Shown here: piece by piece, positions 1-18,364 of the stretch | Layout: the number at the start of each line of letters is the position of its first letter | Position numbering within the stretch: position 1 is the first letter of the stretch | Source: Georgenia subflava | GTDB lineage: Bacteria; Actinomycetota; Actinomycetes; Actinomycetales; Actinomycetaceae | Direction of reading: 5' to 3' | Assembly (NCBI RefSeq): GCF_009193155.1 | Contig: NZ_VUKD01000001.1 | Span: forward strand, 868,001-932,000 | DNA: 64,000 nt | Program-made: the position numbers and the translations under genes | The notes under the pieces: model-generated | What the model was told of the DNA's origin: nothing | Seen by the model: the letters and a program-made list of their open reading frames with translations, nothing else | Database searches by the model: none

Positions 1-1296
1 CCGGTTGCTGCACATGGCCAGGGCCATGCCCCAGCCCTCACCGCGGTAGACCATCCGGTCCATCGCCGGGAAGAACCAGGGCGTCGGGTCGTCGTCGACC
101 GGCGCCACCGACGAGGCCAGGAGCTCCTTGGCCAGCGCCAGCCGCCCGACGGAGGCGCCGTCGAGGATCGAGGTGTAGTCGTTGGACTCGAGCCAGTGCC
201 GGCACCGCCCCCGCCACCGCTCGGCGGTCTGCGCGTCCACGGCGCGGGCGAGCATGAGGATCGCCTCGACCGCCATGAAGCCGTTGTCGTAGCTGCGCTC
301 CTTCTCCCGGGAGACGGCACGGCCACGGACCGCGTCCATCATCTGCCCCTGGTAGACCAGCGGGGCGAACGACTCCTCGACGGAGTCGGTGAGGATGACC
401 CGCGACGGGTCGTCGACGTCGTGCGACGTGGCGGCCAGCAGCGCGAAGAGCCGCGCCAGCCCGCGCAGGAGGACAAGACCGTAGGTACCGGTGTACCCGA
501 TGGTCGAGTGCTGGACGAACGAGCCGTCGCGGTAGAAGCCGTTCCCGCTGCTCACGTACTGCCACGTCGCGCTGAGGCCGGCGACGGCGTGCGCCAGACG
601 CTCGGTGTCGCCCCCGACGATCGAGCGCACGATGACGGCCTGGCACAGGTCGACCCGGTTGGCGCCCTCGGAGAGCTGCTTGCCGCGGCTGTCCGGGAAC
701 TGGTACCAGGGGTCGGGCACGTAGAAGTCGATGGCGGCGCAGTACGAGTCGAGGTCGGCCTGGTCGATGTGGTCGCGGAGCAGCGCCATCGTGTCCGCCA
801 GGGAACGGGTCGCGCCGATCTCCCACGCCCACCAGTTGCCGAACTCCGGCTGGCCGGGGTTGTAGACGAGCCGGTTGGTCTCCCGCAGGGCCACGAGGCA
901 CTCGTCGAGGAGGGCCTCGGAGCCGTAGAAGGCGGACCCGGGTGTCGCCCACTGCGTCGCCATCGCCGCGATCCGCAGGTAGGTCGTGCGAATGTTGTTC
1001 TCGGCCGTGAAGGGCAGGTCGACGAACGTCAGGTCGCTGCCGACGGCGGCGAGCTGGGCGCGATGGCCCGCGACCTGGTCGTCGGCGGACGCGATCCGCG
1101 CCGCGAAGTCGGGGTCGCCCGGCACGAGGAGGTCTCGGCCGGTGAGCTGGTCGACCCAGCGCAGGCGCAGGGTCTGAAGCTCCTGGTCACCGAGCTGGGG
1201 AGCCGCGTGGGCGACCCCGGTCATCGCGTCGCCGACGAGCGCGGCGATTCCGACGGCGCCCATGCCCTGGAACATCTGACGTCGGGACAGCTGCAT
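1..1296 (-). CDS. Polysaccharide lyase family 8 (hyaluronate/chondroitin lyase type), C-terminus off the left edge
   Basis: 432 codons are visible; family members usually run 750-800 residues, so the beta-sandwich half is missing only because the window ends. The start follows a GGAG ribosome site. The N-terminus carries a twin-arginine signal (SRRQMFQ, residues 4-10) before a hydrophobic stretch ending AHAA, so export is by Tat. The alpha/alpha-toroid domain is clear: NWWAWEIG at 154-161 (aromatic patch W155/W156), N213, GNGFYRDGSF at 251-260, H263, Y272 and RGR at 324-326. The 50-residue N-to-H and 9-residue H-to-Y spacings match the catalytic Asn/His/Tyr of pneumococcal hyaluronate lyase. 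Family members cleave hyaluronan, chondroitin or xanthan by beta-elimination; the neighbouring sulfatases and amino-sugar genes favour chondroitin sulfate, by inference. Confidence 0.93.
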   Translation of the reverse strand, partial: MQLSRRQMFQGMGAVGIAALVGDAMTGVAHAAPQLGDQELQTLRLRWVDQLTGRDLLVPGDPDFAARIASADDQVAGHRAQLAAVGSDLTFVDLPFTAENNIRTTYLRIAAMATQWATPGSAFYGSEALLDECLVALRETNRLVYNPGQPEFGNWWAWEIGATRSLADTMALLRDHIDQADLDSYCAAIDFYVPDPWYQFPDSRGKQLSEGANRVDLCQAVIVRSIVGGDTERLAHAVAGLSATWQYVSSGNGFYRDGSFVQHSTIGYTGTYGLVLLRGLARLFALLAATSHDVDDPSRVILTDSVEESFAPLVYQGQMMDAVRGRAVSREKERSYDNGFMAVEAILMLARAVDAQTAERWRGRCRHWLESNDYTSILDGASVGRLALAKELLASSVAPVDDDPTPWFFPAMDRMVYRGEGWGMALAMCSNR

Positions 1297-1350
1297 CGCA
1301 CTTCTCCTTCGTTGGATGGGTGTTGCGCTTGCGGGTGCCGGACGGGGTGC

Positions 1351-1374
1351 GCGCAGCCACTGACGGTGCTGCGC
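1351..1374. other. Hairpin between sulfatase and lyase genes
   Basis: Arms GCGCAGC and GCTGCGC enclose a ten-base loop in the 114-bp gap between the sulfatase stop and the lyase start, both read on the minus strand. There is no following T run. It could weaken read-through into the lyase or protect the upstream mRNA end. No clear promoter was seen in this gap. Confidence 0.3.
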
Positions 1375-1410
1375 CGGTCGATCAGGTCTCGTCCGGCGGC
1401 CGTGGTGCCC

Positions 1411-2892
1411 CTACAGGCCCACGGAGTTCTCGACGGCGGTCTCCGGCCGCACGCGGTCGTCCTCGGGGATGTCTCCGCTCATCGCGAGCCACTGGGCGAA
1501 CCGGTCGCCCCGGTCGACGAGCTCGCGGTAGAGGCGGCGGCGCAGCGCCGTGTGCACGGCGCCGTAGACCGGCGCCGCGATGACGTTGCGCAGCTCGTGC
1601 GGGTCCTCGTGCAGGTCGTAGAGCTCGTCGGTGCCGCCGGGGTTGACGACGAGCTTGTACCGGCGGTCGCGCACCATCCGCTGGGAGTACTGGAAGTGGT
1701 GGCCGTGGAACTCGGCGACGACGACGTCGGACCCGGCGTGCTCCGCCGGCCGCAGCAGGCTCCGCCCGCGGCTGTGCGAGCGCGGCGAGCCGGCGACGTC
1801 GAGGACCGTGGCGTGCAGGTCGATGAGCGTCACGAGCTCGTCCGAGCGGGTCGGCTGCTGCCCGGGTGCGGCGAGGACCAGGGGGATGCGGTAGATGTCC
1901 TCGTACATCGCCGGGCCCTTGTCGTTGAGCCGGTGCGCGCCGGTGAACTCCCCGTGGTCGGCCGTGAAGGCGAGGACCGTCGAGTCGGTGAGCCCGCACT
2001 CCTCGAGTGCGGTGAGGACGCGGCCGATCTGGTGGTCGATCATCGCGACGTAGCCGCGGTAGGCGGCGTGCAGGACCCGCCAGGTCTGCTCGTCGAGACG
2101 ATCGGCGCCCCAGTAACGGGAGTAGGTGCGCTGGACGTCCGGCTTGCCGACGAAGGTCTCGGCCATCGACGCCGGCAGCGGCACGTCGGCCGGGTCGAAC
2201 AGGTCGAACCACTCCGACGGGAGGAGGTACGGCAGGTGCGGCCCGAAGAAGTTGCAGGTGAGGAAGAAGGGCCCGGCGTCGGCGTAGCTGCGGATCTTCT
2301 CGATCGCGAGGTCGGCGAGGTAGGCCTCGAAGGTGGCCTCGGTGGGCTGCGCGAGGCGGCCGGCGAGGAGGTGCCCCCGGCTGCCGTCGGGCAGCGTGGT
2401 GCGGATCTGGTCGTGCACGTCGACCGGCGGGTGGCCGTGCTCGTCGAGCCAGGCCAGGTAGCCGGGGTAGGTGTAGTCGTTGAGGGCGCCCGGGATGTGC
2501 TCGCCGTCGAATCCGTAGTGGTCGGGTCCCAGCCGGCGGCCGACGTGCCACTTGCCGACGTGCCCGGCGGTGTAGCCCTGCGCGGCCAGGTCGTCCGCCA
2601 GGGTGCGGGTGCCCGGCTCGAGCTCCTCCCGCAGGCCCGCGCTCCACTCGAAGTTGCCGATCATGCCGTGCTCGAACGGGTAGCGGCCGGTGAGGAGGCT
2701 GGCCCGGGCAGGTGTGCAGATGGCGCTGGGGGTGTAGGCGGCGTCGAAGACGGTGCCGCGGGCGGCGAGCCCGTCGAGCACCGGGGTGCGGGTGGGCCGG
2801 CCGCCGTAGCAGCCGAGGGTGTCGACCCGGTGCTGGTCGGTCATCAGGAGCAGGACGTTGCGGCGTCCGGCGTTGTCAGTAGGGGACGGCAT
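1411..2892 (-). CDS. Sulfatase, Cys-type (S1 family)
   Basis: 493 residues, a full-length arylsulfatase-type hydrolase. Near the N-terminus TDQH (18-21) supplies metal ligands. C59-T-P-A-R63 is the C-x-P/A-x-R signature whose cysteine is converted to formylglycine. GKWHVG and TADHGEF further on are the conserved Lys/His and Asp/His metal or sulfate-binding motifs. No signal peptide is visible, so it probably acts in the cytoplasm on imported sulfated oligosaccharides. The start has a good GGAGGAG ribosome site and lies 17 bp inside the end of the upstream sulfatase gene, suggesting translational coupling. The exact sulfate ester cannot be read from the sequence. Confidence 0.93.
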   Translation of the reverse strand: MPSPTDNAGRRNVLLLMTDQHRVDTLGCYGGRPTRTPVLDGLAARGTVFDAAYTPSAICTPARASLLTGRYPFEHGMIGNFEWSAGLREELEPGTRTLADDLAAQGYTAGHVGKWHVGRRLGPDHYGFDGEHIPGALNDYTYPGYLAWLDEHGHPPVDVHDQIRTTLPDGSRGHLLAGRLAQPTEATFEAYLADLAIEKIRSYADAGPFFLTCNFFGPHLPYLLPSEWFDLFDPADVPLPASMAETFVGKPDVQRTYSRYWGADRLDEQTWRVLHAAYRGYVAMIDHQIGRVLTALEECGLTDSTVLAFTADHGEFTGAHRLNDKGPAMYEDIYRIPLVLAAPGQQPTRSDELVTLIDLHATVLDVAGSPRSHSRGRSLLRPAEHAGSDVVVAEFHGHHFQYSQRMVRDRRYKLVVNPGGTDELYDLHEDPHELRNVIAAPVYGAVHTALRRRLYRELVDRGDRFAQWLAMSGDIPEDDRVRPETAVENSVGL

Positions 2893-5592: not shown

Positions 5593-5596
5593 GCCC

Positions 5597-6526: not shown

Positions 6527-6538
6527 TGGGCGGTCCGA

Positions 6539-7480
6539 TCAGAACTCGATGGCCTCGCGGCGCGTCACGCGGCGGAGGAGGACGACGAGGACGCTGACGA
6601 GCAGGAGGGAGAGGACGGCTGCTGCCGCGGCGGCCCCGAACGAGGGGATCGACTCGCCCCCGAACGCGGTCGCGTAGGTGTAGACGGCGGCGGTCCAGGT
6701 CTCGTGCGGCGGGGAGCCGACGGTCGTCCCGCCGCCGAAGATCCAGACGATCTCGAAGATCTTCACCGCCGAGATCGTCCACAGCACGGCGCAGACCGCG
6801 AAGACGTCCCAGGTGAGCGGCAGGATGACGTGGCGCAGCCGCTGGAAGGCGTTGGCGCCGGCCAGCGCGGCGTCCTCGAAGAAGTACGGCGGGATGCGGT
6901 CGACGCCGGACATGAGGATCGTCGTGTAGTAGCCGACCGTCATCCACAGCATCGTGATCATGATCAGCGGGAAGAGGTTCTCCCGCGCGAGCCAGGCCAG
7001 GGGCGCCTCGACCCCGATGAAGCCGAGGAGGGAGTTCAGGAGCCCGTCGGGGTTGAAGATGAAGCCCGCGAGCACCCCGAAGACCAGGGCGTTGATGAGG
7101 TGCGGGATGAAGATGACCGAGCGCGCGAACGACTTGCCGGCCATGTCCCGCAGGAAGAGGCTCATCGCGAAGGCGAGGACGAAGATGGCGCCGCCGACGA
7201 CGAAGAGCAGGAGCAGGGTGTTGCCGAACGACGTCAGGAACAGGTCGTCGGTGAGCAGCCGGGTGTAGTTGCCCAGCCCGCGGAACTCCATCGGCCCCGC
7301 GCCGGGCCACTTGTTGAGGCTGATCCAGATCGTCGCGCCGACCGGCACGACGAAGAGAGCGGTGTACAGGACGAGCGCGGGGCCGACGAAGGGCCAGAAC
7401 AGGCGGCGACGCTGACGTGCCAGCGGCGAGCCCGCCTGTCCCGGCGCCTTCGTGGCCGGCGAGCTGAGGAGCGCGGACAT
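6539..7480 (-). CDS. Sugar ABC transporter permease, MalF type (CUT1)
   Basis: 313 residues with six predicted membrane segments and an EAA-like loop near FFEDAALAGANAFQRLRHV. Its ATG shares one base with the stop of the binding-protein gene (TGATG), so the two are translationally coupled. Together with the MalG-type partner it forms the inner-membrane channel for the sugar bound by the lipoprotein. The position ahead of the sulfatases and near the lyase makes unsaturated, possibly sulfated, di- or oligosaccharides the likely cargo (inference). Confidence 0.92.
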   Translation of the reverse strand: MSALLSSPATKAPGQAGSPLARQRRRLFWPFVGPALVLYTALFVVPVGATIWISLNKWPGAGPMEFRGLGNYTRLLTDDLFLTSFGNTLLLLFVVGGAIFVLAFAMSLFLRDMAGKSFARSVIFIPHLINALVFGVLAGFIFNPDGLLNSLLGFIGVEAPLAWLARENLFPLIMITMLWMTVGYYTTILMSGVDRIPPYFFEDAALAGANAFQRLRHVILPLTWDVFAVCAVLWTISAVKIFEIVWIFGGGTTVGSPPHETWTAAVYTYATAFGGESIPSFGAAAAAAVLSLLLVSVLVVLLRRVTRREAIEF

Positions 7481-8790
7481 CAGCCCTGCTCTGCCCAGTA
7501 CTCGGCGGTCGCCGCTGCCATCTTGTCAACGAACTCCTGCGCGTCGATCTTGCCGAGCACGAGCTCGTCGTTGATGGCCCAGAAGACCTTGTCGTTGTAG
7601 CCGGGGAAGGCGACGCCGTCGTTCTGCTGGTGGAAGGAGTCGGCCTCCTGCAGGTGGGCCCACACGCCCGCCTGCTCGGCCGGCGGCTCGACGTCCTCGC
7701 GGACGGGCAGCTGGCCGCCCTCGGCGGCCAGGGCCTGGTACTTCTCCTGGAGGTAGAAGGCGGCGAACTTCTGGGCGGCGTCGGCGTTGTCCGCGTTGCG
7801 CGGCACGACGAAGCCGTTGAAGTCGGCGCGGGCGCTGTTGTGGTCCCCGGACGTCAGCGGGAACGGCATCGACGCGAAGTCGAAGCCCTCGCTCGCGTAG
7901 GTCTGGGTCTCCATCGGGGCCCACGTGCCCATGAAGAGCAGCGCGGCGTCCCCGGCGGCCCACTCCTGCTGGTGCGTGGGGAACTTGCTGGCGTCGTAGC
8001 CGTCGACGAAGTATCCGCCGTCGACGAGCTGCTGGACCTTCTCGGCGGCGTCGAGGACGGCCGGGTCCTTCCAGCTCTCGCCCGTCTCGTCCGCCGCGAT
8101 GGCGTGGAGCGAGCCCGGCCCGGAGTTGCGCAGCAGGAGCGTGGTGAACCAGTAGGCGTTGTACCCGGGGATGTCGCCGTCGAGCGCGATCGGGGTCTGC
8201 CCGTCGGCCTCGAGGCTGTCGAGCAGCCCGATGAAGTCGTCCCACGTCTGCGGGGGGCTCTCGACGAGGTCCGGGTGGCTGGCGGCGTCGAACCAGACCG
8301 CGTCGGAGGTGATCGTGTAGGGGACCATCCAGGGCTGGCCGTCCTCGAGCTCGATGTCGATGGTCTCGAGGTACCGCGCCGGGACGACCTCCTCGAGGGT
8401 CCCGCCCTCGGACTCCGCCGTCCAGGCCTCGTCGAGGCCGAGGGCCTGCCCGGAGGCGACGATGGCGGGGAAGAGCTTGACGTAGGAGCCGTCGACCAGG
8501 TCCGGGCCGGTGCGGGTGCTGAGGGTCGGCACGGTGCGCTGGACGTTGTCGCGCCCCTGCCACTGCGCGTCGACGGTGATGCCGGTCTCGGCCTCGAAGT
8601 CCTCGATCGCCTGGGCCATGACCACCTGCATGGGTTCACCCTCCTTCCACATGGACCAGTAGGTGAACTCCGTCGACTCCTCACCGCTGCCGGAGTCCGC
8701 ACCACTGTCGGAGCAGGCGGCAAGGACGAGGGAAGCGGCGCCGATCGCGGCGAGGGCGGCAGCTCGCCGCCCGGGTCGGATATGCATCAT
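7480..8790 (-). CDS. Sugar ABC transporter substrate-binding lipoprotein (CUT1)
   Basis: 436 residues from the first of two adjacent ATG codons (8790 or 8787), both correctly spaced after a GGAAGG site. The frame is open further upstream, but that extension crosses the promoter region. A short Arg-rich N-terminus, hydrophobic core and lipobox LAAC (followed by SDSGADSG) mark a lipoprotein anchored on the outer membrane face. The rest is a family 1 extracellular solute-binding protein (FTYWSMWKEG near the start; a Trp-rich C-terminal lobe). First gene of the importer-sulfatase operon, transcribed divergently from the GntR/LacI-type regulator. Confidence 0.93.
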   Translation of the reverse strand: MMHIRPGRRAAALAAIGAASLVLAACSDSGADSGSGEESTEFTYWSMWKEGEPMQVVMAQAIEDFEAETGITVDAQWQGRDNVQRTVPTLSTRTGPDLVDGSYVKLFPAIVASGQALGLDEAWTAESEGGTLEEVVPARYLETIDIELEDGQPWMVPYTITSDAVWFDAASHPDLVESPPQTWDDFIGLLDSLEADGQTPIALDGDIPGYNAYWFTTLLLRNSGPGSLHAIAADETGESWKDPAVLDAAEKVQQLVDGGYFVDGYDASKFPTHQQEWAAGDAALLFMGTWAPMETQTYASEGFDFASMPFPLTSGDHNSARADFNGFVVPRNADNADAAQKFAAFYLQEKYQALAAEGGQLPVREDVEPPAEQAGVWAHLQEADSFHQQNDGVAFPGYNDKVFWAINDELVLGKIDAQEFVDKMAAATAEYWAEQG

Positions 8791-8832
8791 TGCAACCTTC
8801 CGTGGTGGACAGCCCCGGTCGTCCGGGGCCCT

Positions 8833-8937
8833 GTGCACCGTCAGCATGACCCAAGTCACCCCCTCCGTCAAGGTGTACTTCGAGATGACTTTGGTGCAAT
8901 GCACCCCCCGATTGGCGATCAGTACTACCTAAGTCAT
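8833..8937. promoter_or_regulatory. Divergent promoter and candidate operators for the importer/sulfatase operon
   Basis: The gap between the binding-protein start and the regulator start holds several symmetric elements. GGTGCAATGCACC at 8893-8905 is a perfect 6+1+6 palindrome. TGAC-N4-GTCA lies at 8847-8858, and ATGACTT (8885-8891) and AAGTCAT (8931-8937) are inverted copies of the same half-site. On the minus strand, TTGACG with a 17-bp spacer to CATGCT is a plausible promoter, with the TGAC-N4-GTCA element inside its spacer. These are candidate binding sites for the adjacent regulator. Confidence 0.5.
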
Positions 8938-8988
8938 TCCCAAATGGGTTCGTCGGCTGCTACGTTGTCCCCGACGAAAGGAACCTGC

Positions 8989-10110
8989 ATGACAAGCATC
9001 GAAGCTGATGCCAGGCCGGAGGACGGGCGGGAGCTGAAGTTCCGTGCCCTCGCCAACGACCTGCGCGCACGGATCGTCAGGGGTGTCTGGGAGCCGGGGG
9101 CGAAGCTGCCCACGGAGAAGCAGCTCTCGGTCGACCACGACCTGTCCATGACCACGGTCCGGCGCGCGCTCGACGAGCTCGTCGAGCAACGCCTGGTGGT
9201 GCGCCGGCAGGGCTCCGGCACCTTCGTGGCCAAGACCCCGCCGCGCTCGCGCGACACCCTGTCCGTCGGCGTCCTCGTCCCGAGCACGACCCAGTACTAC
9301 CCGCAGGTCCTCGCCGGCATCGAGACCACGCTGTCCGGCGCCTCGGCGCGGATGATGCTGGCGTGCTACCACTACGACTCGAGCGAGGAGGACCGTGACA
9401 TCGCCTCGCTCGTCGACGGGGGCGTCGACGGCCTGCTCCTCGCACCCGACCTCACGACCCCCGCCGACCCGGCGGCACGCCTCGAGGAGCTCCTCCGGCT
9501 GCCCGTGCCCGTCGTCCTGCTCGAGCGGCGGCTGTTCGACGCCGGCCCGGCGGACCGGGCCGAGTACGTGCGCACCGATCACGAGGCCGGTGCCTTCGAC
9601 GCCGTCTCCCACCTGGCCACGCTCGGGCACGAGCGGGTCGCCCTCATCTGCCGTCACCCCAACCCGACCGGCAACTGGGTGGTGCGTGGCTACAACGCGG
9701 CCGTGACGGACCTCGACCTCGCCCGGATCGACCCCGTGCTGGCAGCCAGCGACGACTGGTCGCCCGGTCGGGCCGACGAGGCCCTCGCCGAGCTGCTCCG
9801 CAGCCGCGCGACCGCCGCGGTCGTCTTCGGCGACCGGGAGGCCGCCCTGCTCGAGGGCGCCGCACGCCGGGCGGGAGTGCGGGTCCCGGAGGACCTGGCG
9901 CTCGTCGCCTACGACGACGAGAGCGCCGACGTCGCGGAGATCCCGCTCACGGCGGTGTCACCGCCCAAGCACACGCTGGGTCGCCTCGGGGCCCAGGTCC
10001 TGCTGACCCGGCTCAGCGACGGCGACGCCGCCCCGGTGCACCAGATCAACCTGCGTCCCCGGGTCGTCATCCGCGACTCGTGCGGCGCCCGCCTGCGAGG
10101 AGCACGATGA
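8989..10110 (+). CDS. GntR-type HTH / LacI-type sensor transcriptional regulator (AraR-like architecture)
   Basis: 373 residues; the ATG has an AAAGGA ribosome site. Residues about 13-80 are a GntR winged helix (KLPTEKQLSVDHDLSMTTVRRAL, then RRQGSGTFV). From about residue 85 the protein is a periplasmic-binding-protein-like sensor of the LacI/GalR kind (LSVGVLVPSTTQYYPQVLAGI; later VPEDLALVAYDDE). This chimera is typical of AraR-type sugar repressors. It is divergent from the importer/sulfatase operon and overlaps the next gene by four bases, so it probably represses both until an oligosaccharide or amino sugar binds. The ligand is unknown. Confidence 0.9.
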   Translation: MTSIEADARPEDGRELKFRALANDLRARIVRGVWEPGAKLPTEKQLSVDHDLSMTTVRRALDELVEQRLVVRRQGSGTFVAKTPPRSRDTLSVGVLVPSTTQYYPQVLAGIETTLSGASARMMLACYHYDSSEEDRDIASLVDGGVDGLLLAPDLTTPADPAARLEELLRLPVPVVLLERRLFDAGPADRAEYVRTDHEAGAFDAVSHLATLGHERVALICRHPNPTGNWVVRGYNAAVTDLDLARIDPVLAASDDWSPGRADEALAELLRSRATAAVVFGDREAALLEGAARRAGVRVPEDLALVAYDDESADVAEIPLTAVSPPKHTLGRLGAQVLLTRLSDGDAAPVHQINLRPRVVIRDSCGARLRGAR

Positions 10111-11114
10111 GACTCGGACTGATCGGGGCAGGCGCCGTCGGCGTGCTGCACGCGCGCGCGGCCCAGGAGGTCGAGGGGGTCTCGGTCGTGGCGGTGTGCG
10201 CCCGCGAGCGCGCGGAGGCCGCCGAGCTCGCCGGGCCGCTCGGCGCGGGCGTGCACACCGACTACCGGGAGCTGCTCGCCGTCGCCGGCGTGGACGCCGT
10301 CGTCGTCAGCACCCCGCACGCCCTGCACACCCAGATGGTTCTCGACGCCGCCGCCGCGGGCGTGCACGTGCTCGTCGAGAAGCCGATGGCGACGACGGAG
10401 CAGGACTGCGACGCCATGGTGACGGCGTGCTCCGAGGCGGGCGTCCGGCTCGCGGTCGGCCACATCCAGCACTTTCTTCCCGACAAGGTGGCTGCCGCCG
10501 CCGCGATCGCCGCGGGGGAGATCGGCGACGTCCTCCTCGTCCACGACTACCGCAGCACCGACTACCGGGCCGGCAGCCGGCCGGGATGGTTCTTCGACCC
10601 CGCGGTCGCCGGGGGCGGGGCCGTGATGAACATCGGCGGGCACTGCATCGACCGGATGAGCTGGCTGGCCGGCTCGCTCCCGGACGAGGTCCGGGCGCAC
10701 ACCTGGTCGCGCTTCGGCGTCGGCGTGGAGACGGACGCCGTCGCCACGCTGACGATGGCTAACGGGGTGGTCGCGTCCCTGACCATCACCTCGACGACGC
10801 CGCGGCACCTCGACGAGATCGTGGTCGTCGGCGAGCACGGCACGGTGGTCGCCGACCCGCGGGTCGGGACGGTGCTGCGCCGGGACGGCGACGTGCGCGT
10901 CCTGCACGAGCCGTCGAGCGACGACATCCCCGTGGCGTTCCGCCACCAGCTCGAGGCGTTCGTCCGCCACGTCGACGACGGCGCCACCTTCCCGGTGAGC
11001 CTCGAGCTCGGCAGGTCCGTCGTGGCGACGGTCCGCGCGATCTACCGCAGTGCGTCCGCCGGCCACCAGGTGCGCGTCGAGTCGCCCGAGATGGACCCGG
11101 TCCCGGCTGCATGA
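10107..11114 (+). CDS. Gfo/Idh/MocA family NAD(P)-dependent oxidoreductase
   Basis: 335 residues from the ATG that overlaps the regulator stop (ATGA), preceded by GAGGAG. A Rossmann fold opens the protein (GAGAVG, residues 7-12), and VEKPMATT is the conserved EKP motif of the family. GGAVMNIGGHCID precedes the C-terminal beta-sheet dimerisation domain. Family members oxidise or epimerise sugars, sugar acids and inositols, and a few are NAD-dependent glycosidases. In this locus it may act on the uronic acid or amino-sugar part of the substrate. The reaction cannot be named from the sequence. Confidence 0.88.
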   Translation: MRLGLIGAGAVGVLHARAAQEVEGVSVVAVCARERAEAAELAGPLGAGVHTDYRELLAVAGVDAVVVSTPHALHTQMVLDAAAAGVHVLVEKPMATTEQDCDAMVTACSEAGVRLAVGHIQHFLPDKVAAAAAIAAGEIGDVLLVHDYRSTDYRAGSRPGWFFDPAVAGGGAVMNIGGHCIDRMSWLAGSLPDEVRAHTWSRFGVGVETDAVATLTMANGVVASLTITSTTPRHLDEIVVVGEHGTVVADPRVGTVLRRDGDVRVLHEPSSDDIPVAFRHQLEAFVRHVDDGATFPVSLELGRSVVATVRAIYRSASAGHQVRVESPEMDPVPAA

Positions 11115-11216
11115 GCCAAGTCGGCACGCCCTCGGAGGACGCCGCCCGGGACGCCGGAGCGGCGGGCGCGCGGCCCGCCTTGGGTGTGGTGCTCGCCCCG
11201 TCCGGAGGGCGCCGCG

Positions 11217-12644
11217 ATGGCGAGCCGTGACCCCGAGCGACCCAACGTCGTCCTCGTCCTCGCGGACGACCTGGGGCCCTGGGCGCTCGGCTGCGCCGGC
11301 AACCCGGAGATCAGGACGCCCCACATCGACGGCCTCGCCGCCGAGGGCACCCGGCTGAGCCGGTTCTTCTGCACGTCGCCGGTGTGCTCGCCCGCCCGGG
11401 CGAGCCTGCTCACCGGCGAGATGCCGTCCGTCCACGGCGTCCACGACTACCTCGACGCCCGCCACGTCGGCCCCGACGGCACCGACTTCCTCGCCGGCCG
11501 CCGCAGCTACACGGACGACCTCGCCGACGCCGGGTACCGTCTCGGCCTGGTCGGCAAGTGGCACCTCGGCGCGAACGACCGGCCGCGGCCGGGCTTCGTC
11601 CGGTGGCTCGCCCACGCAGGCGGTGGCGGGCCCTACCACGGCGCACCCCTGCACGACGAGCACGGGCCCGTGGACGCGCCCGGCTACGTCACGGACGTGC
11701 TGACGGACGCGGCGCGGCAGTTCGTCGCGGCGGAGGCGGACCGGCCCGAGCCCTTCTACCTCTCGCTGCACTACACGGCCCCGCACAGCCCGTGGAAGGG
11801 GCACCACCCGGCCGAGTACACCGACCTGTACGCGGACTGCGCGTTCGACTCGGTGCCGCAGGAACCGACGCACCCGTGGGTGCCGCTCGTCGACGGTCAC
11901 CCGATCGGGGGCGAGGCAGACACCCGGGCCGCGCTGGAGGGCTACTTCGCGGCGGTCAGCGCCATGGACGCCGGCGTGGGCGGCCTCCTCGCCGAGGTGG
12001 CGGCCCAGGAGCTCGAGGAGAGCACGCTGGTGATCTTCACGAGCGACAACGGCTTCAGCTGCGGCCAGCACGGGATCTGGGGGAAGGGCAACGCCACCTT
12101 CCCGCAGAACATGTATGACGAGTCGGTGCTCGTCCCGTTCGTCGCGCGCCTGCCCGGGCGGGTGCCGGCGGGACAGGTGAGCGACTCCCTGCTCTCCGCC
12201 TACGACCTCGCGCCGACCCTGCGCGAGCTGTGCGGGCTCGGCGCCGGGCCCGGCTCCGGCCCGGGGCGCTCCTTCGCGGGCCTGCTCCGCGGCGACGCCG
12301 ACGAGGGCCACGACCGCGTCGTCGTGTTCGACGAGTACGGACCGGTCCGGATGCTGCGCACCCGCAGCCACAAGTACGTCCACCGCTACCCGCTCGGGCC
12401 GCACGAGCTGTACGACCTCGTGGCCGACCCCGCCGAGCGCACCAACCTGGTCGACGACCCGGACCATGCGGGGCTGCGTGCCGAGCTCGCCGCCGAGCTG
12501 GACGCCTGGTTCCGGCGGCACACGAGCCGCGACGCCGACGGGCGCGTGCTGCCGGTCACCGGCGCAGGGCAGGTGGCACCGCTGAGCGAGGGCACGGGCG
12601 CGTTCCGCGAGGCGGCGCAGTTCCGGGCCGTGCCCCGCTACTGA
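11217..12644 (+). CDS. Sulfatase, Cys-type (S1 family), fourth of the locus
   Basis: 475 residues from the ATG after GGAGGGC; an open extension upstream lacks a good start. LADDLG (15-20) supplies metal ligands, C57-S-P-A-R61 is the formylglycine site, and VGKWHLG and TSDNGFSCGQHG follow. There is no signal peptide. It is on the opposite strand from the other three sulfatases and follows the oxidoreductase by about 100 bp, so it is probably co-transcribed with the regulator. TSDNG in place of TSDHG is normal in a subset of S1 sulfatases, including GAG and N-acetylgalactosamine sulfatases. Confidence 0.93.
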   Translation: MASRDPERPNVVLVLADDLGPWALGCAGNPEIRTPHIDGLAAEGTRLSRFFCTSPVCSPARASLLTGEMPSVHGVHDYLDARHVGPDGTDFLAGRRSYTDDLADAGYRLGLVGKWHLGANDRPRPGFVRWLAHAGGGGPYHGAPLHDEHGPVDAPGYVTDVLTDAARQFVAAEADRPEPFYLSLHYTAPHSPWKGHHPAEYTDLYADCAFDSVPQEPTHPWVPLVDGHPIGGEADTRAALEGYFAAVSAMDAGVGGLLAEVAAQELEESTLVIFTSDNGFSCGQHGIWGKGNATFPQNMYDESVLVPFVARLPGRVPAGQVSDSLLSAYDLAPTLRELCGLGAGPGSGPGRSFAGLLRGDADEGHDRVVVFDEYGPVRMLRTRSHKYVHRYPLGPHELYDLVADPAERTNLVDDPDHAGLRAELAAELDAWFRRHTSRDADGRVLPVTGAGQVAPLSEGTGAFREAAQFRAVPRY

Positions 12645-12668
12645 ACGGGCCTCGACCGCCGCCGGCGC

Positions 12669-13520
12669 TCACGCGGTGGCGTTCACCTCGCCGGCGTACC
12701 AGCGCAGCAGCCGCTCGACCTCGGGGCCGACGGCCTCGTTGCCGGCCCGGAACCACGCGCGGGTGTCCACGACGTCGGGCCGGTCGCTCAGGAGCTTGCG
12801 GACCGCGCCGGTGACGAGCTTGTTCAGGTGCGTCGAGACGTTGATCTTCGTCATGCCCGCGGTGATCGCGGCGCGCATGCCCGCGTCGCTGACCCCCGAG
12901 GAGCCGTGGAGGACGAGGGGCACGGGAAGGGCCGCCGCGAGGGCCGCGACGAGCTCGGTGTCGATGCTCGCGTCCCGCGTCGTCATGGCGTGCGAGGAGC
13001 CGACGGCGACAGCGAGGAGGTCCACGCCCGTCTCCTCGACGAACCGGGCGGCGTCGCCGGGGTCGGTGCGTGCGGACGGGTCGTGCACGCCGTTCTTCCC
13101 GCCGACCTCGCCGAGCTCCGCCTCGACGGTCGCGCCCGCGGCGTGCGCACGCGCCACGACCTGGGCCGTCGTCGCCCGGTTGGCGTCGTCGGGCAGCCGC
13201 GAGCCGTCGTACATCACCGAGGCGATGCCCAGCTCGAGGGCCTCGTCGATGAGGCCGACGTCCTCGGCGTGGTCGAGATGGACGACGACCGGCACCGCGG
13301 CCGACCGGGCGACCGCGAGGACGCCCGCGGCGAGCGGGGCGAGGCTGCCGTGGTAGGCGACCGCGTTCTGGCTGATCTGGAGGACCACCGGCCGGCCCGC
13401 ACGCTCGGCGGCGGCGGCGAAGACCTCGGCGTGCTCGAGGTGGACGACGTTGAAGGCACCGAGCCCGGTGCCGGCGGCGCGGCACTCCCGGGCGAGCTGG
13501 GCCAGGTCAGCGAGCGGCAT
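12669..13520 (-). CDS. Class II ketose-bisphosphate aldolase (tagatose/fructose-1,6-bisphosphate type)
   Basis: 283 residues. Zn/catalytic motifs of class II aldolases are present: VVHLDHAEDV (Asp and His), VEAELGEVGG (Glu), VGSSHAM (His), LVLHGSSGV (His) and MTKINVSTHLN (phosphate site). Length and motifs fit the GatY/KbaY/AgaY group, which splits tagatose-1,6-bisphosphate into glyceraldehyde-3-phosphate and DHAP. Its start lies 14 bp inside the PfkB kinase gene and has a GGAGGAG site. Last step of the inferred N-acetylgalactosamine route. A fructose-bisphosphate or other ketose substrate cannot be excluded. Confidence 0.87.
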   Translation of the reverse strand: MPLADLAQLARECRAAGTGLGAFNVVHLEHAEVFAAAAERAGRPVVLQISQNAVAYHGSLAPLAAGVLAVARSAAVPVVVHLDHAEDVGLIDEALELGIASVMYDGSRLPDDANRATTAQVVARAHAAGATVEAELGEVGGKNGVHDPSARTDPGDAARFVEETGVDLLAVAVGSSHAMTTRDASIDTELVAALAAALPVPLVLHGSSGVSDAGMRAAITAGMTKINVSTHLNKLVTGAVRKLLSDRPDVVDTRAWFRAGNEAVGPEVERLLRWYAGEVNATA

Positions 13521-14463
13521 GGAGCTCCTCCACGGTGACGGCAGCGCGCATGCGCTGGTAGGCGGGCAGGTCGACGTCGCCGGCGAGCGGCGCGAGCACG
13601 GCGGACCCCGAGAGCGCGACGACGTCGGGCAGCCGGTCCGGCAGCTGCTGCCGGAGCGGGGCGTCCGGCGTGCCCGCCGCGAGGGCGTCGGCGAGTGCGG
13701 CGACGGCGGCGTCGCCGGCCCCGGTCGGGTTGCCGGAGAGGACCTCGGCGGGCCGCGCGCGCCACACCCGTGCCCCGGCCGGGTCCGGCAGGACCAGGAG
13801 CATCCCCTCCTCACCGCTGGAGACGGCGACGCCGCCGGCCCCGTGCCCCAGGAGGAGCTCGGCGCCGGTGCGCACGTCGGTCGCCCCGGTGGCCTCCAGG
13901 AGCTCGTGGTGGTTGGGCTTGAGCAGGTGCGCCCCCGCGGCGGCGGCGGCGAGGAGGCCCGGCCCGGACGTGTCGACGACCGTGCGCGCTCCGCTCTCGT
14001 GGAGCCGGCGCAGGAGCCGCGGAAGCTCGTCCGCGCCGGTGCCGGGCGGCGTCGAGCCCGCGACGACGACGACGTCCCCGGCCCGGACCAGGCTGGCGAG
14101 GTGGTCGGCGAGGGCGACCCACGCGTCCTCCGCGAGGCGGGGACCGGGCTCGTTGAGGACCGTCGCACCGTGGGTGTCGACGACGGTCGTGGTCCGGCGG
14201 GTCTCGGCCGCGACCTCGAGCCACTCCTGCGCGACTCCGTCGGTGGTGGCGAGCAGGGCGGAGAGGCGCTCGCCGGTCGCGCCGCCGAGGAAGCCGGTGA
14301 CGGTGACGGGCCGGCCGAGCTTGGCGAGCACGCGGGCCACGTTGACGCCCTTGCCGCCGGCCGCCTCGGCCACCTCACGGACGCGGTTGACCTCGCCCAG
14401 GCGGACGCTGGGCAGCGTGTAGGTGACGTCGACCGCCGGGTTGGGAGTGACGGTGCGGATCAC
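13507..14463 (-). CDS. PfkB-family hexose-phosphate kinase (1-phosphofructokinase / tagatose-6-phosphate kinase type)
   Basis: 318 residues from a GTG with a strong GGAGG site; the GTG overlaps the stop of the ROK gene by four bases. TPNPAVDVTY at the N-terminus and GGKGVNVARVLAKLG near residue 40 are hallmarks of the FruK/LacC branch, and GNPTGAGDAAVA near the C-terminus holds the catalytic Asp of the PfkB anion hole. Next to an AgaS-like isomerase and a class II aldolase, tagatose-6-phosphate is the likely substrate, giving tagatose-1,6-bisphosphate. FruK-like activity on fructose-1-phosphate is the alternative. Confidence 0.88.
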   Translation of the reverse strand: MIRTVTPNPAVDVTYTLPSVRLGEVNRVREVAEAAGGKGVNVARVLAKLGRPVTVTGFLGGATGERLSALLATTDGVAQEWLEVAAETRRTTTVVDTHGATVLNEPGPRLAEDAWVALADHLASLVRAGDVVVVAGSTPPGTGADELPRLLRRLHESGARTVVDTSGPGLLAAAAAGAHLLKPNHHELLEATGATDVRTGAELLLGHGAGGVAVSSGEEGMLLVLPDPAGARVWRARPAEVLSGNPTGAGDAAVAALADALAAGTPDAPLRQQLPDRLPDVVALSGSAVLAPLAGDVDLPAYQRMRAAVTVEELHAAR

Positions 14464-15347
14464 TGGACACCTCCGTCGGGGTGGGGCAGGGCGAGTGCGG
14501 CCGCGCCCATGCAGCCGGCCCACGGGCCCAGCGCGGCGGGCACGACCTCCGGGACGTTCCCCAGGACCAGCCGCTCGGCGAGCCGCTCGCGCAGCGGTCC
14601 GAGCAGGTCCTCACCGGCCCCGGCGAGCCCGCCGCCGATGACGATCCGGACGGGCCCGAGGAGACAGACGGCGCCCGCCAGGACGTCGGCGAGGCGGTCC
14701 AGCGCGTCGGCGACCACGGTTCGGGCCCGCGGGTCACGGTCGGCGAGACGACGGAACACCTCCCGGGCGCCGTCGGTCACCTCGCCGCCGGCCGCACAGC
14801 GCCGTGCCAGCGCAGCGGCCGACGCGACGCGCTCGAGCGGGAGGTCCGGCCCGCCGTCCGGGTCCGTGACGAGGACGTGGCCGATCTCCCCGGCGAACCC
14901 GGTGCCCCAGGGCCGTCCGTCCAGGACGAGGGCCGCCGCGATGCCGGTGCCGATGGGGACGAAGAGCATGGCGTCCGCCCCGGCGCCCCAGCGGGACTCG
15001 GCCAGGGCCCCGGCGCGGACGTCGTGGCCGACCGCGACCGGCTCCGCGAGGGCGGCGGCGAGCAGGTCGCGCACCGGGACGTCGCGCCAGCCCAGGTTGG
15101 CCGAGAGCGCGACGGTCCCGGCGTCGTCGTCGACGATGCCCGGCACGGCCACGCCGACGGGCAGGTCCGCGCCGGCCGCGCGACGCAGGTCGCGCACCAG
15201 GGTGGCGACGGCGGCCACGAGGGCGTCGGGCTCGCGCGGCGTCGGCAGGTCCCGGCGCTCGGTCAGGGTGCCGCCGGCGTCGACGACCCCGGCCTTGACC
15301 GCCGTGCCACCGACGTCGACGCCGATCGCCCGTGGTGCGGAAGTCAT
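14460..15347 (-). CDS. ROK-family sugar kinase
   Basis: 295 residues from the ATG overlapping the SIS gene stop (ATGA). The ATP-site motif DVGGT starts at residue 11. GHDVRAGALAE holds the catalytic Asp, and GEIGHVLV the conserved ExGH. The Cys-rich zinc motif (CxCGxxGCxE) that normally follows ExGH is replaced by a Pro/Asp/Gly-rich stretch without cysteine, so this is a zinc-less ROK variant. In this operon it is a good candidate for phosphorylating imported galactosamine or N-acetylgalactosamine, since there is no PTS, but glucose or N-acetylglucosamine are possible. Confidence 0.85.
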   Translation of the reverse strand: MTSAPRAIGVDVGGTAVKAGVVDAGGTLTERRDLPTPREPDALVAAVATLVRDLRRAAGADLPVGVAVPGIVDDDAGTVALSANLGWRDVPVRDLLAAALAEPVAVGHDVRAGALAESRWGAGADAMLFVPIGTGIAAALVLDGRPWGTGFAGEIGHVLVTDPDGGPDLPLERVASAAALARRCAAGGEVTDGAREVFRRLADRDPRARTVVADALDRLADVLAGAVCLLGPVRIVIGGGLAGAGEDLLGPLRERLAERLVLGNVPEVVPAALGPWAGCMGAAALALPHPDGGVQ

Positions 15348-16222
15348 CCGTCCGTGGCGGAGAGGATGACCGAGCGGGACAGGGAGCGCGGCCGGTCCGG
15401 GTCGAGCCCGCGGGCCTCGGCCCGGGCCACCGCGAGCCGGTGCAGCAGGACGAGGTGCGCCATCGGGTCGAGGTCGGAGGTCACGAGCTCGGCGCCCGTC
15501 GCGGCGACGTCGTCCGCCAGCCCCGAGGGGACCTCGCCGAAGACCCACACCACGCGGCCCGGCTGCGCGATCGCGACGGGACCGTGCCGGTACTCCATCG
15601 CCGGGTAGGACTCGGTCCAGGACTGGGAGGACTCGCGCAGCTTCAGCGCGGCCTCGTGCGCGAGCCCGATGGTCCAGCCGGTACCGAGGAAGGTGATCTG
15701 GTCGGCCGCCACCCACGAGTCCTTCACCGGCGCGGTCAGCGCGGCCTCGGCGTCGGCGACGACGGCGCCGAGGTCACCCTCGATGCTGGCGCGGAGCACG
15801 AGCAGGGCGGTGGTGGCGAACCGGGTCTGGACCACCGACTCCTCGTCGGCGAAGTCGAGGACGATCTCCGCGTCGGCGTGCGCGGCGGCGGGGCCGCCGC
15901 CGACGGCGGTGATCAGCAGCGAGGGCGTGGTCGTGGCGGCGAGGAGGTCGATGATCTCGGTCGTCGTCCCGGACCGCGAGATCGTGACGATGCGGTCGTA
16001 GTCGCGGCCGGCGGGGAACTCCGTCGCGGTGAACGCGTCGGTCAGGCCGTGCCCGGCCCGCTCGCGCAGGACCGCGTAGCTCTGGGCCATGAACCACGAG
16101 GTGCCGCACCCGACGACGGCGACACGCTCACCGGGAGCGGGGAGGCCGGCGACCTCCAGGTCCAGCGCGCGACGCCACACCTCAGGCTGGCTGGCGATCT
16201 CACGGGTGGTGTTCTGAGTCAC
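15344..16222 (-). CDS. SIS-domain amino-sugar-phosphate deaminase/isomerase (AgaS-like)
   Basis: 292 residues, GTG start with GGAGAT six bases upstream. It has two SIS domains: the first has GCGTSWFMAQ and ISRSGTTTEI (sugar-phosphate-binding Ser/Thr); the second has GTGWTIGLAHEAALKLRESS and the EYRHGP motif shared with AgaS and the isomerase half of GlmS. AgaS converts galactosamine-6-phosphate to tagatose-6-phosphate and ammonia, which fits the kinase and aldolase downstream. First gene of a four-gene coupled operon, divergent from a DeoR regulator. A fructoselysine-type or GlmS-like role is the main alternative. Confidence 0.85.
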   Translation of the reverse strand: MTQNTTREIASQPEVWRRALDLEVAGLPAPGERVAVVGCGTSWFMAQSYAVLRERAGHGLTDAFTATEFPAGRDYDRIVTISRSGTTTEIIDLLAATTTPSLLITAVGGGPAAAHADAEIVLDFADEESVVQTRFATTALLVLRASIEGDLGAVVADAEAALTAPVKDSWVAADQITFLGTGWTIGLAHEAALKLRESSQSWTESYPAMEYRHGPVAIAQPGRVVWVFGEVPSGLADDVAATGAELVTSDLDPMAHLVLLHRLAVARAEARGLDPDRPRSLSRSVILSATDG

Positions 16223-16249
16223 GTCATCTCCATGGTGTGTGCGTTTTTC

Positions 16250-16286
16250 TGATTAGAATCATCACAGATCGATCATCTTCAGTCAA
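16250..16286. promoter_or_regulatory. Promoter and candidate operator for the amino-sugar operon
   Basis: On the minus strand TTGACT (16281-16286) and GATGAT (16258-16263) are separated by 17 bp, a near-consensus promoter for the SIS gene. A perfect palindrome, TGATT-AG-AATCA, at 16250-16261 overlaps the -10 box, and GATCGATC lies in the spacer. Binding of the divergent DeoR regulator here would block transcription of the operon. Confidence 0.6.
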
Positions 16287-16331
16287 CGAGATGTCCGGCA
16301 GGTGATCGTCGGGACATAAGAGAGGGGACGG

Positions 16332-17117
16332 ATGGACCGGCACGACCGGCTCAACGCGATCCTCGCGCTCCTCCTCGAGCGCGAGGCGGTCCGGGTCGAC
16401 GAGATCGTCAGCGAGCTCGGTGTCTCCGCGGCGACCGCCCGCCGCGACCTCGACGCCCTGGCCGACCAGCAGCTCCTCACCCGCACGCGCGGCGGGGCGG
16501 CCACCCACCCGGGTTCCTCGGACCTGCCGCTGCGCTACCGGGGCGGGCGCAAGGCGTCGGAGAAGGCGCGGATCGCTCGCGCCGCGGCCGCGACCGTGGG
16601 CCTCGGCGAGGTGGTCGCCCTCAACGGCGGCACGACGACGACCGAGGTGGCTCGCGAGATCGCCACCCGACCCGACCTCCAGCCCGGTCGCGGCGGCAAC
16701 GGCATCACCGTCGTGACCAACGCGGTCAACATCGCCGGCGAGCTCACCGTTCGCCCGCACGTCCGCGTGGTCGTCACCGGTGGCGTGGCGCGCCCGCAGA
16801 GCTACGAGCTCACCGGCCCGCTGGCCGGCCTCATCCTCGACCAGATCACCGTCGACACCCTGTTCCTCGGGGTCGACGGCCTCGACCTCGACCGAGGTGC
16901 CACCGCCACGGACGAGAGCGAGGCGGCGGTGAACGCCGCGCTCGTCCGCGCCGCCCGACGGACGGTGATCGTCGCCGACTCCGGCAAGCTCGGCAAGAGC
17001 TCCTTCGCACGGATCTGCCCGCTCGAGAACGTCGACGCGCTCATCACCGACTCCGGGGCAGAGGGCGCCCAGGTCGAGGCGTTCCGAGCCGCCGGGCTCG
17101 AGGTCACCCTCGTATGA
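16332..17117 (+). CDS. DeoR-family transcriptional regulator (AgaR-like)
   Basis: 261 residues; the ATG follows GAGGGG. The N-terminal HTH is typical (HDRLNAILALL, then VSAATARRDLDAL), followed by TRTRGGA. The C-terminal DeoR sensor, related to ribose-5-phosphate isomerase, has ALNGGTTTTEVA, TNAVNIAGEL, VTGGVARPQSYELTG and VADSGKLGKSSF. Such regulators sense phosphorylated sugars; AgaR of enterobacteria controls N-acetylgalactosamine use. It is divergent from the SIS/ROK/PfkB/aldolase operon and is probably its repressor. Confidence 0.9.
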   Translation: MDRHDRLNAILALLLEREAVRVDEIVSELGVSAATARRDLDALADQQLLTRTRGGAATHPGSSDLPLRYRGGRKASEKARIARAAAATVGLGEVVALNGGTTTTEVAREIATRPDLQPGRGGNGITVVTNAVNIAGELTVRPHVRVVVTGGVARPQSYELTGPLAGLILDQITVDTLFLGVDGLDLDRGATATDESEAAVNAALVRAARRTVIVADSGKLGKSSFARICPLENVDALITDSGAEGAQVEAFRAAGLEVTLV

Positions 17118-17146
17118 GCGGGCGGGTCCACCCGGACGGGCACGCG

Positions 17147-17190
17147 CTCGTACGAGCACCCGCGGTCCACTCGTACGAGCACCCGCGGTC
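17147..17190. repeat. Two 21-bp direct repeats with palindromic cores, upstream of the FGE gene
   Basis: Copies at 17147-17167 and 17170-17190 are identical and begin CTCGTACGAG, itself a perfect 10-bp palindrome, then continue into a CACCCGCGG stretch. Period is 23 bp, close to two helical turns. They lie just after the DeoR gene and about 150 bp before the FGE start. Either tandem operators or part of a DeoR transcript end. Confidence 0.6.
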
Positions 17191-17338
17191 ATGGCACAGT
17201 GAAGTCTCCGCCTCGCAGTGGTCCCCAGCCTCACCCGTTCCGGGGCCGAGAGGTGAGGAGGTCCCGGTGCGAGATCCCACGACGGTCGCAGCCGGGACCT
17301 CGACGGAGGTTCCGGCCCCACGCCCCGGAGGTCACGAG

Positions 17339-18364
17339 ATGAGCTGCTGCGCGGGTACTGGCCGCTCCGACATCGCCCTCGGTGCTACCCCGGCGATCCC
17401 GGCGATCCCGGCGATCCAGGCGATCCAGGCCCCCGCCTCCCGACCGGTCGGGCGAGCCGAGGCCTCGGACGGTCACCGGCACGTCGTCGACCTGCCGGGC
17501 GGCGCGTTCCTCATGGGCGGGGACGACCCGGACGCCAACCCCATGGACGGCGAGGGTCCGCCCCGTCGGGTCGAGGTCTCCCCGTTCGGCATCGAGGCGC
17601 ACGCGGTGACGAACGATGCTTTCGGTGAGTTCGTGGCGGCCACGGGCTACCGCACCGAGTCCGAGGACTTCGGCTGGAGCTTCGTCTTCGCTCGCTTCCT
17701 GAGCCGGGAGGCGCGGGCCACCGCGCGGCGGGTGCCGGACGCTCCGTGGTGGTGCGCGGTCGCGGGCGCGACGTGGTTCGCCCCCGAGGGCCCCGGGTCG
17801 GGCGTGGCGGGCCGGGGCGACCACCCCGTCGTCCACGTCAGCTGGCGCGACGCCGAGGCCTATGCCGCGTGGCGCGGCGGACGCCTGCCGACCGAGGCGG
17901 AGTGGGAGTACGCGGCCCGCGGCGGGCTCGAGCAGGCGCGCTACCCGTGGGGCGACGAGCTCACGCCCGGTGGCGAGCACCGCTGCAACATCTGGCAGGG
18001 CAGGTTCCCAGTGCGCAACACCGGCGAGGACGGCCACCTCGGGACGGCCCCGGTGGAGACGTTCGCACCGAACGGGTTCGGCCTCTTCCAGATGTCCGGC
18101 AACGTGTGGGAGATGTGTGCCGACGGCTGGACGGCGACCCGCTGGGCGGGTGCCGACGACCGCCCGGTGCTCGACCCGGTCGGCCCGGCAGGCGGGTCCG
18201 AGCGGGTGATGCGCGGCGGTTCCTACCTGTGCCACGCCTCGTACTGCAACCGCTACCGGGTTGCCGCTCGGACGAAGAACGCACCGGACAGCGCCGCGGG
18301 GAACCAGGGTTTCCGGATCGCGTTCGACCCCGCTCCGCGCCCCGAGGCGGCACTGCGGCCGTGA
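17339..18364 (+). CDS. Formylglycine-generating enzyme (sulfatase-modifying factor)
   Basis: 341 residues from the ATG after GGAGGT; an upstream open extension has no domain. The N-terminus (MSCCAG) resembles other actinobacterial FGEs. VDLPGGAFLMGGDD begins the FGE-sulfatase fold, WEYAARGG and GNVWEMCADGW follow, and the active-site block has C298 and C303 in GGSYLCHASYCNRYR, with the five-residue spacing of the copper-binding pair in Streptomyces and human FGE. The enzyme oxidises the sulfatase CxPxR cysteine to formylglycine. Co-location with four Cys-type sulfatases is strong functional context. Confidence 0.94.
   Translation: MSCCAGTGRSDIALGATPAIPAIPAIQAIQAPASRPVGRAEASDGHRHVVDLPGGAFLMGGDDPDANPMDGEGPPRRVEVSPFGIEAHAVTNDAFGEFVAATGYRTESEDFGWSFVFARFLSREARATARRVPDAPWWCAVAGATWFAPEGPGSGVAGRGDHPVVHVSWRDAEAYAAWRGGRLPTEAEWEYAARGGLEQARYPWGDELTPGGEHRCNIWQGRFPVRNTGEDGHLGTAPVETFAPNGFGLFQMSGNVWEMCADGWTATRWAGADDRPVLDPVGPAGGSERVMRGGSYLCHASYCNRYRVAARTKNAPDSAAGNQGFRIAFDPAPRPEAALRP
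17391..17426 (+). repeat. Four 9-bp repeats inside the FGE gene
   Basis: Units of CGGCGATCC (two later ones with AGGCGATCC) encode the Pro-Ala-Ile / Gln-Ala-Ile run in the N-terminal linker of FGE. Repeat number could vary by slippage without breaking the frame. Confidence 0.8.

Follow-up and report, generated by a model that had tools for sequence, protein, structure and literature searches.

A predicted chondroitin sulfate locus of Georgenia subflava with a conserved oxidoreductase and no detected GH88 hydrolase

Once a lyase has cut a glycosaminoglycan (GAG), the unsaturated disaccharides are normally split by hydrolases of families GH88 and GH105 (Pfam model PF07470). Here, we analysed 64,000 nucleotides of Georgenia subflava (contig NZ_VUKD01000001.1, positions 868001-932000 of the forward strand), hereafter the window, in which a PL8 lyase gene is followed by genes for sulfatases, an ATP-binding cassette (ABC) importer, an oxidoreductase of the Gfo/Idh/MocA type and sugar kinases. 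The locus is real and well conserved, and it mostly joins a known kind of locus. What is new is the absence of GH88 combined with the conserved oxidoreductase, and no published account of a locus with both traits was found in the titles and abstract openings of the papers listed. Coordinates refer to the window, and negative numbers lie to the left of its position 1. The source genome has 4.32 Mb in 11 contigs with a completeness rating of 98.74%, and its G+C content is 69-77% in 2-kb steps.

Genes of the locus

An initial annotation of this DNA had described a sulfated-GAG locus. All the genes that it named are present, and their core recurs in 23 other genomes. Its reading as a GAG locus with ABC import, signal-less sulfatases and a linked SIS-ROK-PfkB-aldolase block was upheld, while three of its points, a SIS protein of the AgaS kind, the lack of a close described example and a possible GH88 gene to the left, were not. 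It had left two genes unmentioned, the GntR-LacI hybrid regulator and the oxidoreductase, whose gene overlaps the 3' end of the regulator gene. The features are as follows.

-1046..1296 (1..1296 in the window), minus strand: PL8 lyase, 5' part in the window (Pfam and solved relatives)
1411..2892, minus: sulfatase P0001 (PF00884), ambiguous specificity; best solved relative exo-2S-iota-carrageenan sulfatase, 183.5 bits
2876..4219, minus: sulfatase P0002 (PF00884), ambiguous specificity; 2-O GAG sulfatase 160.6, N-acetylglucosamine (GlcNAc)-6-sulfatase 147, N-acetylgalactosamine (GalNAc)-6-sulfatase 146.6 bits
4216..5592, minus: sulfatase P0003 (PF00884), nearest a chondroitin sulfate/dermatan sulfate (CS/DS) 4-O-endosulfatase, 332.4 bits
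5597..6526, minus: ABC importer permease (BPD_transp_1)
6539..7480, minus: ABC importer permease (BPD_transp_1)
7480..8790, minus: sugar-binding lipoprotein (SBP_bac_1, lipobox-like LAAC); reading frame open to 8904, start at 8790 chosen by us
8989..10110, plus: GntR-LacI hybrid regulator
10107..11114, plus: Gfo/Idh/MocA oxidoreductase P0007, conserved candidate for the uronate step
11217..12644, plus: predicted SulA1-type GalNAc-4-O-sulfatase P0008 (PF00884 and SulA1 residues)
12669..13520, minus: class II ketose-bisphosphate aldolase
13507..14463, minus: PfkB-family kinase
14460..15347, minus: ROK-family kinase
15344..16222, minus: SIS-domain protein, nearer GlmD than AgaS
16332..17117, plus: DeoR-family regulator (AgaR model 169.5 of 260 and GlpR_Halo 179.1 of 300 bits, both below cut-off)
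17114..18364, plus: formylglycine-generating enzyme (FGE; PF03781); first start codon of the frame used, the true start may be further in

The window edge cuts the lyase gene, of which 1046 bases extend to the left. The complete protein has 780 amino acids, an N-terminus (SRRQMF) that resembles a twin-arginine translocation signal, and the domains Lyase_8_N (300.8 bits), Lyase_8 (187.5) and Lyase_8_C (55). The PL8 catalytic spacing noticed earlier is formed by N213, H263 and Y272, which are 50 and 9 residues apart. Among solved structures, the lyase scores 744.5 bits to chondroitin AC lyase 1rwa, which we take to come from Arthrobacter aurescens, and 523.1 bits to 8fnx, the highest-scoring hyaluronate lyase. 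Chondroitinases from Arthrobacter are in wide use as reagents. No NCBIfam lyase model passed its cut-off, the best being HylB with 349 of 1350 bits; chondroitinase-AC has 113 of 1000, and the curated models leave the type unsettled. PL8 lyases of 26-37% identity also occur in 20 plasmid records, from haloarchaea, Yersinia enterocolitica, E. coli, Citrobacter, Enterococcus and Arthrobacter.

All four sulfatases are above the PF00884 cut-off and carry the Cys-type motif C-x-P-x-R, and the FGE (PF03781, 255.9 bits) has both active-site cysteines, C373 and C378. The nearest solved relative of P0003 is the CS/DS 4-O-endosulfatase 6j66. With the ATG at 11217 as its start, P0008 carries D17, D18, C57, H190, D277 and N278, which are six of the six published residues of SulA1 at identical numbers. 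These numbers were taken from the SulA1 report (PMC10972148; here and below, statements on cited papers refer to excerpts of them) and not from a direct comparison with the SulA1 sequence. P0008 has 475 amino acids, and three of its relatives have 484, like SulA1. SulA1, from marine Arthrobacter MAT3885, is a GalNAc-4-O-sulfatase reported to have no signal peptide, and its gene neighbours one for a chondroitin lyase (PMC10972148); P0008 is predicted to be an enzyme of this type. By eye, with no predictor run, none of the four sulfatases has a signal peptide; they are thus probably cytoplasmic, as had been proposed. The importer is likewise as first described, with the SBP_bac_1 protein and two BPD_transp_1 permeases.

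The set of SIS, ROK, PfkB and class II aldolase genes with a DeoR regulator is also present, and its four enzyme genes overlap end to end by a few bases. Its link to the GAG locus is borne out by two relatives, G926 and G914, which carry a matching block beside the same importer (SIS proteins 55% identical). The SIS protein had been linked to AgaS, an identity that its score of 27.3 bits against a cut-off of 529.2 rules out; its best NCBIfam model is GlmD, also below cut-off (83.3 of 580). For the PfkB kinase, the lacC model gave 130.7 of 409.55 bits. The tagatose-aldolase models gave 145.9-196.3 bits for the aldolase against cut-offs of 383-542, so that no tagatose-specific model passed for either protein; only the general 1-PFK subfamily model did (245 against 216.4). 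GH88 and NagA-type genes had been named as ones to look for to the left of position 1, but the left neighbours of the lyase are recC and a recD-type helicase gene. Two NagA matches lie elsewhere in the genome, both below cut-off (196.4 and 168.5 of 225.65 bits).

A perfect 13-base palindrome, GGTGCAATGCACC, stands at 8893-8905 between the binding-protein and regulator genes and is a candidate operator. Its TGCA-N-TGCA core is absent from the equivalent place in the other 23 loci, and it was rejected as an operator shared among loci. Loose matches within the window number three, near chance level.

Conservation in relatives and the search for GH88

Searches for the lyase found it in 3 of 213 genomes of the own family at E 1e-50, G. 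subflava included (none of the eight same-genus genomes listed), in 12 of 396 of the order at E 1e-120, in 22 of 395 of the family labelled f5 at E 1e-150 and in 1 of 221 of the family labelled f8. From 33 relatives, the DNA flanking the lyase gene (25 to 40 kb each) was compared with the own locus. The cluster is found in 24 loci, which are those of 22 f5 genomes, of genome G281 and of G. subflava. Ten lyase loci are without it, three with a near lyase (G387, G528 and G501) and seven with a more distant one (G310, G241, G475, G049, G398, G291 and G323). Streptomyces justiciae and Sphaerisporangium corydalis have a distant lyase with no other core gene within 10 kb.

Six families occur in all 24 loci: the lyase, the GntR-LacI regulator, the oxidoreductase, the binding protein and the two permeases. 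Besides the lyase, the oxidoreductase is the only enzyme in all of them. At the score thresholds chosen, on which these counts depend, sulfatases of the P0008 type are in 23 loci, of the P0003 type in 21, of the P0002 type in 16 and of the P0001 type in 3. A PF01261 gene is in 19, a DUF2264 gene in 11, a chondroitin-ABC-type PL8 gene in 9, FGE in 4 and DeoR in 1, while the SIS, ROK, PfkB and aldolase genes are in three each (G926, G914 and own). Unguided clustering of open reading frames (ORFs) of at least 80 amino acids from 27 loci gave, as we read the 70 clusters printed, no further family in at least 20 loci, antisense and overlapping frames aside.

The unsaturated glucuronyl hydrolase of the classical GAG disaccharide pathway has no match here. 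PF07470 (cut-off 26.6 bits) matched nothing in the whole genome of G. subflava, where first-look candidates were scored and failed, while it had matches in 3 of 14 control genomes. The counts cover the 24 cluster genomes, the ten others with a lyase, and G119. Within the cluster genomes, one match in G281 (22.6 bits) is below the cut-off, only G914 exceeds it, and the remaining 22, the own genome included, have no match. In the ten others, G310 and G241 are above the cut-off, G475 is below it and seven have none; G119 has none.

In sister PL8 clusters (G310, G475 and Arthrobacter sp. ERGS1:01), a 2-hydroxyacid dehydrogenase gene stands by the importer and lyase genes, where the chondroitin clusters have the Gfo/Idh/MocA gene. 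The lyase gene of G310 has a PF01261 gene next to it.

The oxidoreductase and its partner genes

At E 1e-45, the oxidoreductase was found in 27 of the 395 f5 genomes, with 1.8e-95 as the weakest match. These include every lyase genome (22 of 22), and the other five come from the remaining 373. The association with the lyase has a Fisher value of 1e-31, in which independence is overstated because the genomes are related. Four of the five lyase-negative genomes (G658, G698, G608 and G722) keep the importer, regulator, sulfatases and PF01261 gene around the oxidoreductase gene with no intact near lyase; in the fifth, G612, a contig end cuts the locus, and the oxidoreductase and PF01261 genes are visible 11 bases apart. 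In G722 (C1, about 364.6-365.5 kb), lyase similarity appears only as two short matches, and the cluster is otherwise complete. Nonomuraea gerenzanensis has the order permease, permease, binding protein, regulator, oxidoreductase and SulA1-like sulfatase, which is that of the window. The neighbour there is a 1186-residue ORF that weakly matches heparinase II/III and alginate lyase, and PL8 and PF01261 genes lie elsewhere in that genome. Since four of the five lyase-negative genomes and N. gerenzanensis keep the genes for uptake and desulfation, the oxidoreductase goes with these more than with the lyase.

We aligned the oxidoreductase of the window with 23 others, four of them from lyase-negative genomes and with G281 and G646 left out. 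The residues E91-K92-P93 and H179, which we take to be the catalytic residues of the Gfo/Idh/MocA fold, are in all rows. Among the best 60 of 90 matches to solved structures, the first is 3q2k (103.7 bits), labelled oxidoreductase and presumably a UDP-GlcNAc-uronate 3-dehydrogenase. Further relatives are an inositol dehydrogenase (84.5 bits), DgpA (83) and glucuronide-3-dehydrogenase (52.5), and the matches include dehydrogenases that act at the 3-position of sugars. We also assume that NAD+-dependent sulfoquinovosidases share fold kinship with the oxidoreductase. A single-sequence structure prediction had a mean pLDDT (predicted local distance difference test) of 41.5 and was not used.

The PF01261 partners have E160, H162, D204, H207 and E279, presumably metal-related, in all 21 aligned rows. 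One of these rows is a homologue in the own genome, which lies outside the locus at G000:C6:230509. The only significant solved relative of the G281 protein is AsbF (29 bits, E 7e-6), which we take to be a 3-dehydroshikimate dehydratase. In G387, the PF01261 gene at L032:1040-1954, next to the lyase gene, matched none of the other partners at E 1e-3 and was excluded from the counts. The own-genome homologue belongs to a group of genes at L164:6845-11303 (G000:C6), whose other members encode an epimerase, a LacI regulator and a further Gfo/Idh/MocA protein. About 30 kb to the left of the window (-37361..-30558), three PF01261 genes, a transporter-like gene and a Gfo/Idh/MocA gene form a cluster. 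In plasmids of Arthrobacter sp. MN05-02 and StoSoilB3, genes for a 2-hydroxyacid dehydrogenase and an ABC sugar importer stand next to PF01261 homologues, together with one for a carbohydrate-binding module protein or a melibiase-like protein; these sets are perhaps other redox sugar-cleaving modules.

The DUF2264 protein resembles the solved structures 8oi4, 9o4u and 9nwf, of which 9o4u and 9nwf are labelled glucuronate dehydratases. Of the 11 loci with this GH154-type gene, 10 have it overlapping the oxidoreductase gene or no more than 10 bases behind it; the other locus is that of G646, where the end of the oxidoreductase gene was not read.

Proposed route and alternative explanations

We propose that the exported PL8 lyase would cut chondroitin sulfate into unsaturated sulfated disaccharides, as its homology suggests, and that the ABC importer would take these up. 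In the cytoplasm, the FGE-activated sulfatases, with P0008 of the SulA1 type, would remove the 4-sulfate and probably other sulfates. The bond between uronate and GalNAc would not be cut by GH88 or GH105, because none was found. The Gfo/Idh/MocA enzyme may oxidise the uronate, with the allylic hydroxyl at C3 as the likeliest site, after which elimination could free GalNAc. This elimination would take place in the same active site or with help from the PF01261 TIM-barrel protein, whose gene lies nearby in most relatives; in G. subflava, a homologue is encoded elsewhere in the genome. GalNAc would pass to the ROK kinase, a deacetylase encoded elsewhere, the SIS protein, the PfkB kinase and the aldolase. 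This tagatose-type route is read from the gene set, since the SIS protein is not AgaS and the kinase and aldolase pass no tagatose-specific model. The whole proposal, a chondroitin sulfate locus without GH88 in which the oxidoreductase starts redox cleavage of the disaccharide, is put forward tentatively, and we give it somewhat less than an even chance.

The chemistry has a precedent in levoglucosan, where oxidation at C3 by a Gfo-type enzyme is followed by elimination by a PF01261 enzyme (PMC7676230, PMC10066097). This LgdA/LgdB1 pair, also present in Paenarthrobacter, resembles the present case in combining Gfo/Idh/MocA oxidation with a PF01261 protein. However, its substrate is different, on the levoglucosan dehydrogenase model P0007 reaches 79 of 650, and the window locus has the oxidoreductase and no PF01261 gene. 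NAD+-dependent sulfoquinovosidases also cleave glycosides with NAD+, in work that mentions Arthrobacter (PMC10755693); their substrate differs, and the likeness noted here is that of the reaction. The route could release the uronate as a comenic-acid-type aromatic 4-pyrone acid, because the 3-keto unsaturated uronate is the ring-oxygen analogue of 3-dehydroshikimate and the G281 PF01261 protein is nearest AsbF. Among the literature matches listed, no paper paired comenic acid with Arthrobacter. The GH154-type dehydratases encoded in these operons would supply the route with saturated ends. A hydrolase-free GAG pathway in some actinobacteria with all these details, NAD-dependent C3 oxidation, 1,2-elimination of GalNAc, PF01261 help in most species, the 4-pyrone acid and GH154 feeding, is rather unlikely.

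Chondroitin sulfate is very probably the substrate, as the initial annotation had suggested, because the nearest solved lyase, P0003 and P0008 all point to it. The same three proteins speak against another uronic-acid polymer, such as hyaluronan, dermatan sulfate or a sulfated plant, algal or microbial polysaccharide, as do the chondroitin-ABC-type PL8 genes of nine loci, and hyaluronan would not require four sulfatases. That HylB is the top NCBIfam lyase model, above chondroitinase-AC, favours such a polymer, and so do the ambiguous relatives of P0001 and P0002, the former being nearest a carrageenan sulfatase. PL8 enzymes can also be broad, for HCLaseM of Microbacterium acts on hyaluronan and several chondroitin sulfate types (PMC6950261). 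On balance, another polymer is quite improbable.

The route is less secure than the substrate, and several observations weigh against it. In G914, a partial match to GH88 (35.5 bits) lies some 190 kb away from the lyase gene. The PF01261 partner is missing from five of the 24 loci, that of the window included. G387, G528 and G501, with a near lyase and no GH88, have no oxidoreductase orthologue in the stretches taken, nor is there one at the lyase locus of the f5 genome G291, whose lyase is more distant. Furthermore, 4,5-dihydroxyphthalate dehydrogenase (103.5 bits, among the same best 60 matches) is level with 3q2k, and the NCBIfam models for UDP-GlcNAc 3-dehydrogenase (130.7 of 450) and inositol 2-dehydrogenase (125.3 of 355) are nearly level and, like all others, far below cut-off; solved relatives and models settle no reaction for the enzyme. 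An unrecognised hydrolase elsewhere may cut the disaccharide, with the oxidoreductase acting downstream on the released uronate, in a KduD-like step, or on GalNAc. Gfo/Idh/MocA enzymes use many free sugars and inositols, and a GH88-like enzyme may be too divergent for the hidden Markov model or lie in the unassembled 1-2% of the genome. This is possible but doubtful, given that the own-genome candidates failed, that the absence of GH88 repeats in 22 of the 23 other cluster genomes and that the printed clusters of the unguided analysis hold no other enzyme family so widespread. It is highly improbable that the GH154-type protein itself cleaves the unsaturated uronide and is served by the oxidoreductase. 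The tight coupling of the two genes in ten loci would fit this, but the gene is in fewer than half of the loci and not in that of the window (the rest of the own genome was not searched), and its solved relatives are labelled glucuronate dehydratase or beta-galactosidase. Moreover, the GH154 enzyme of Bacteroides caccae released no glucuronate and made the unsaturated end for GH88 (PMC12269599).

The statement that this bacterial group offers no close described example is contradicted by SulA1 and choA1 of Arthrobacter MAT3885 (PMC10972148) and by chondroitinase AC II of Arthrobacter sp. CS01 (PMC6471956). The choA1-sulA1-sulA2 genes are like the present locus in that a chondroitin AC lyase gene stands beside signal-less sulfatases, of which P0008 shares the SulA1 residues. 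However, the excerpted account describes the lyase and two sulfatases and does not cover an importer, oxidoreductase, GH88, GalNAc genes or disaccharide splitting. PUL25 of B. caccae similarly breaks down chondroitin with lyase, sulfatase and a GH154-type glucuronate dehydratase (PMC12269599), but it uses GH88, of which 23 of the 24 cluster genomes have none over cut-off. Haloarchaeal GAG loci share PL8, sulfatase and ABC transporter and differ in having GH88 with GH154 (PMC13260240).

The missing GH88 in most lyase-bearing relatives makes disaccharide splitting one question with one main suspect gene. If the proposed route is true, the redox breakage of glycosidic bonds would also cover glycosaminoglycans, and uronates with an unsaturation already in place.

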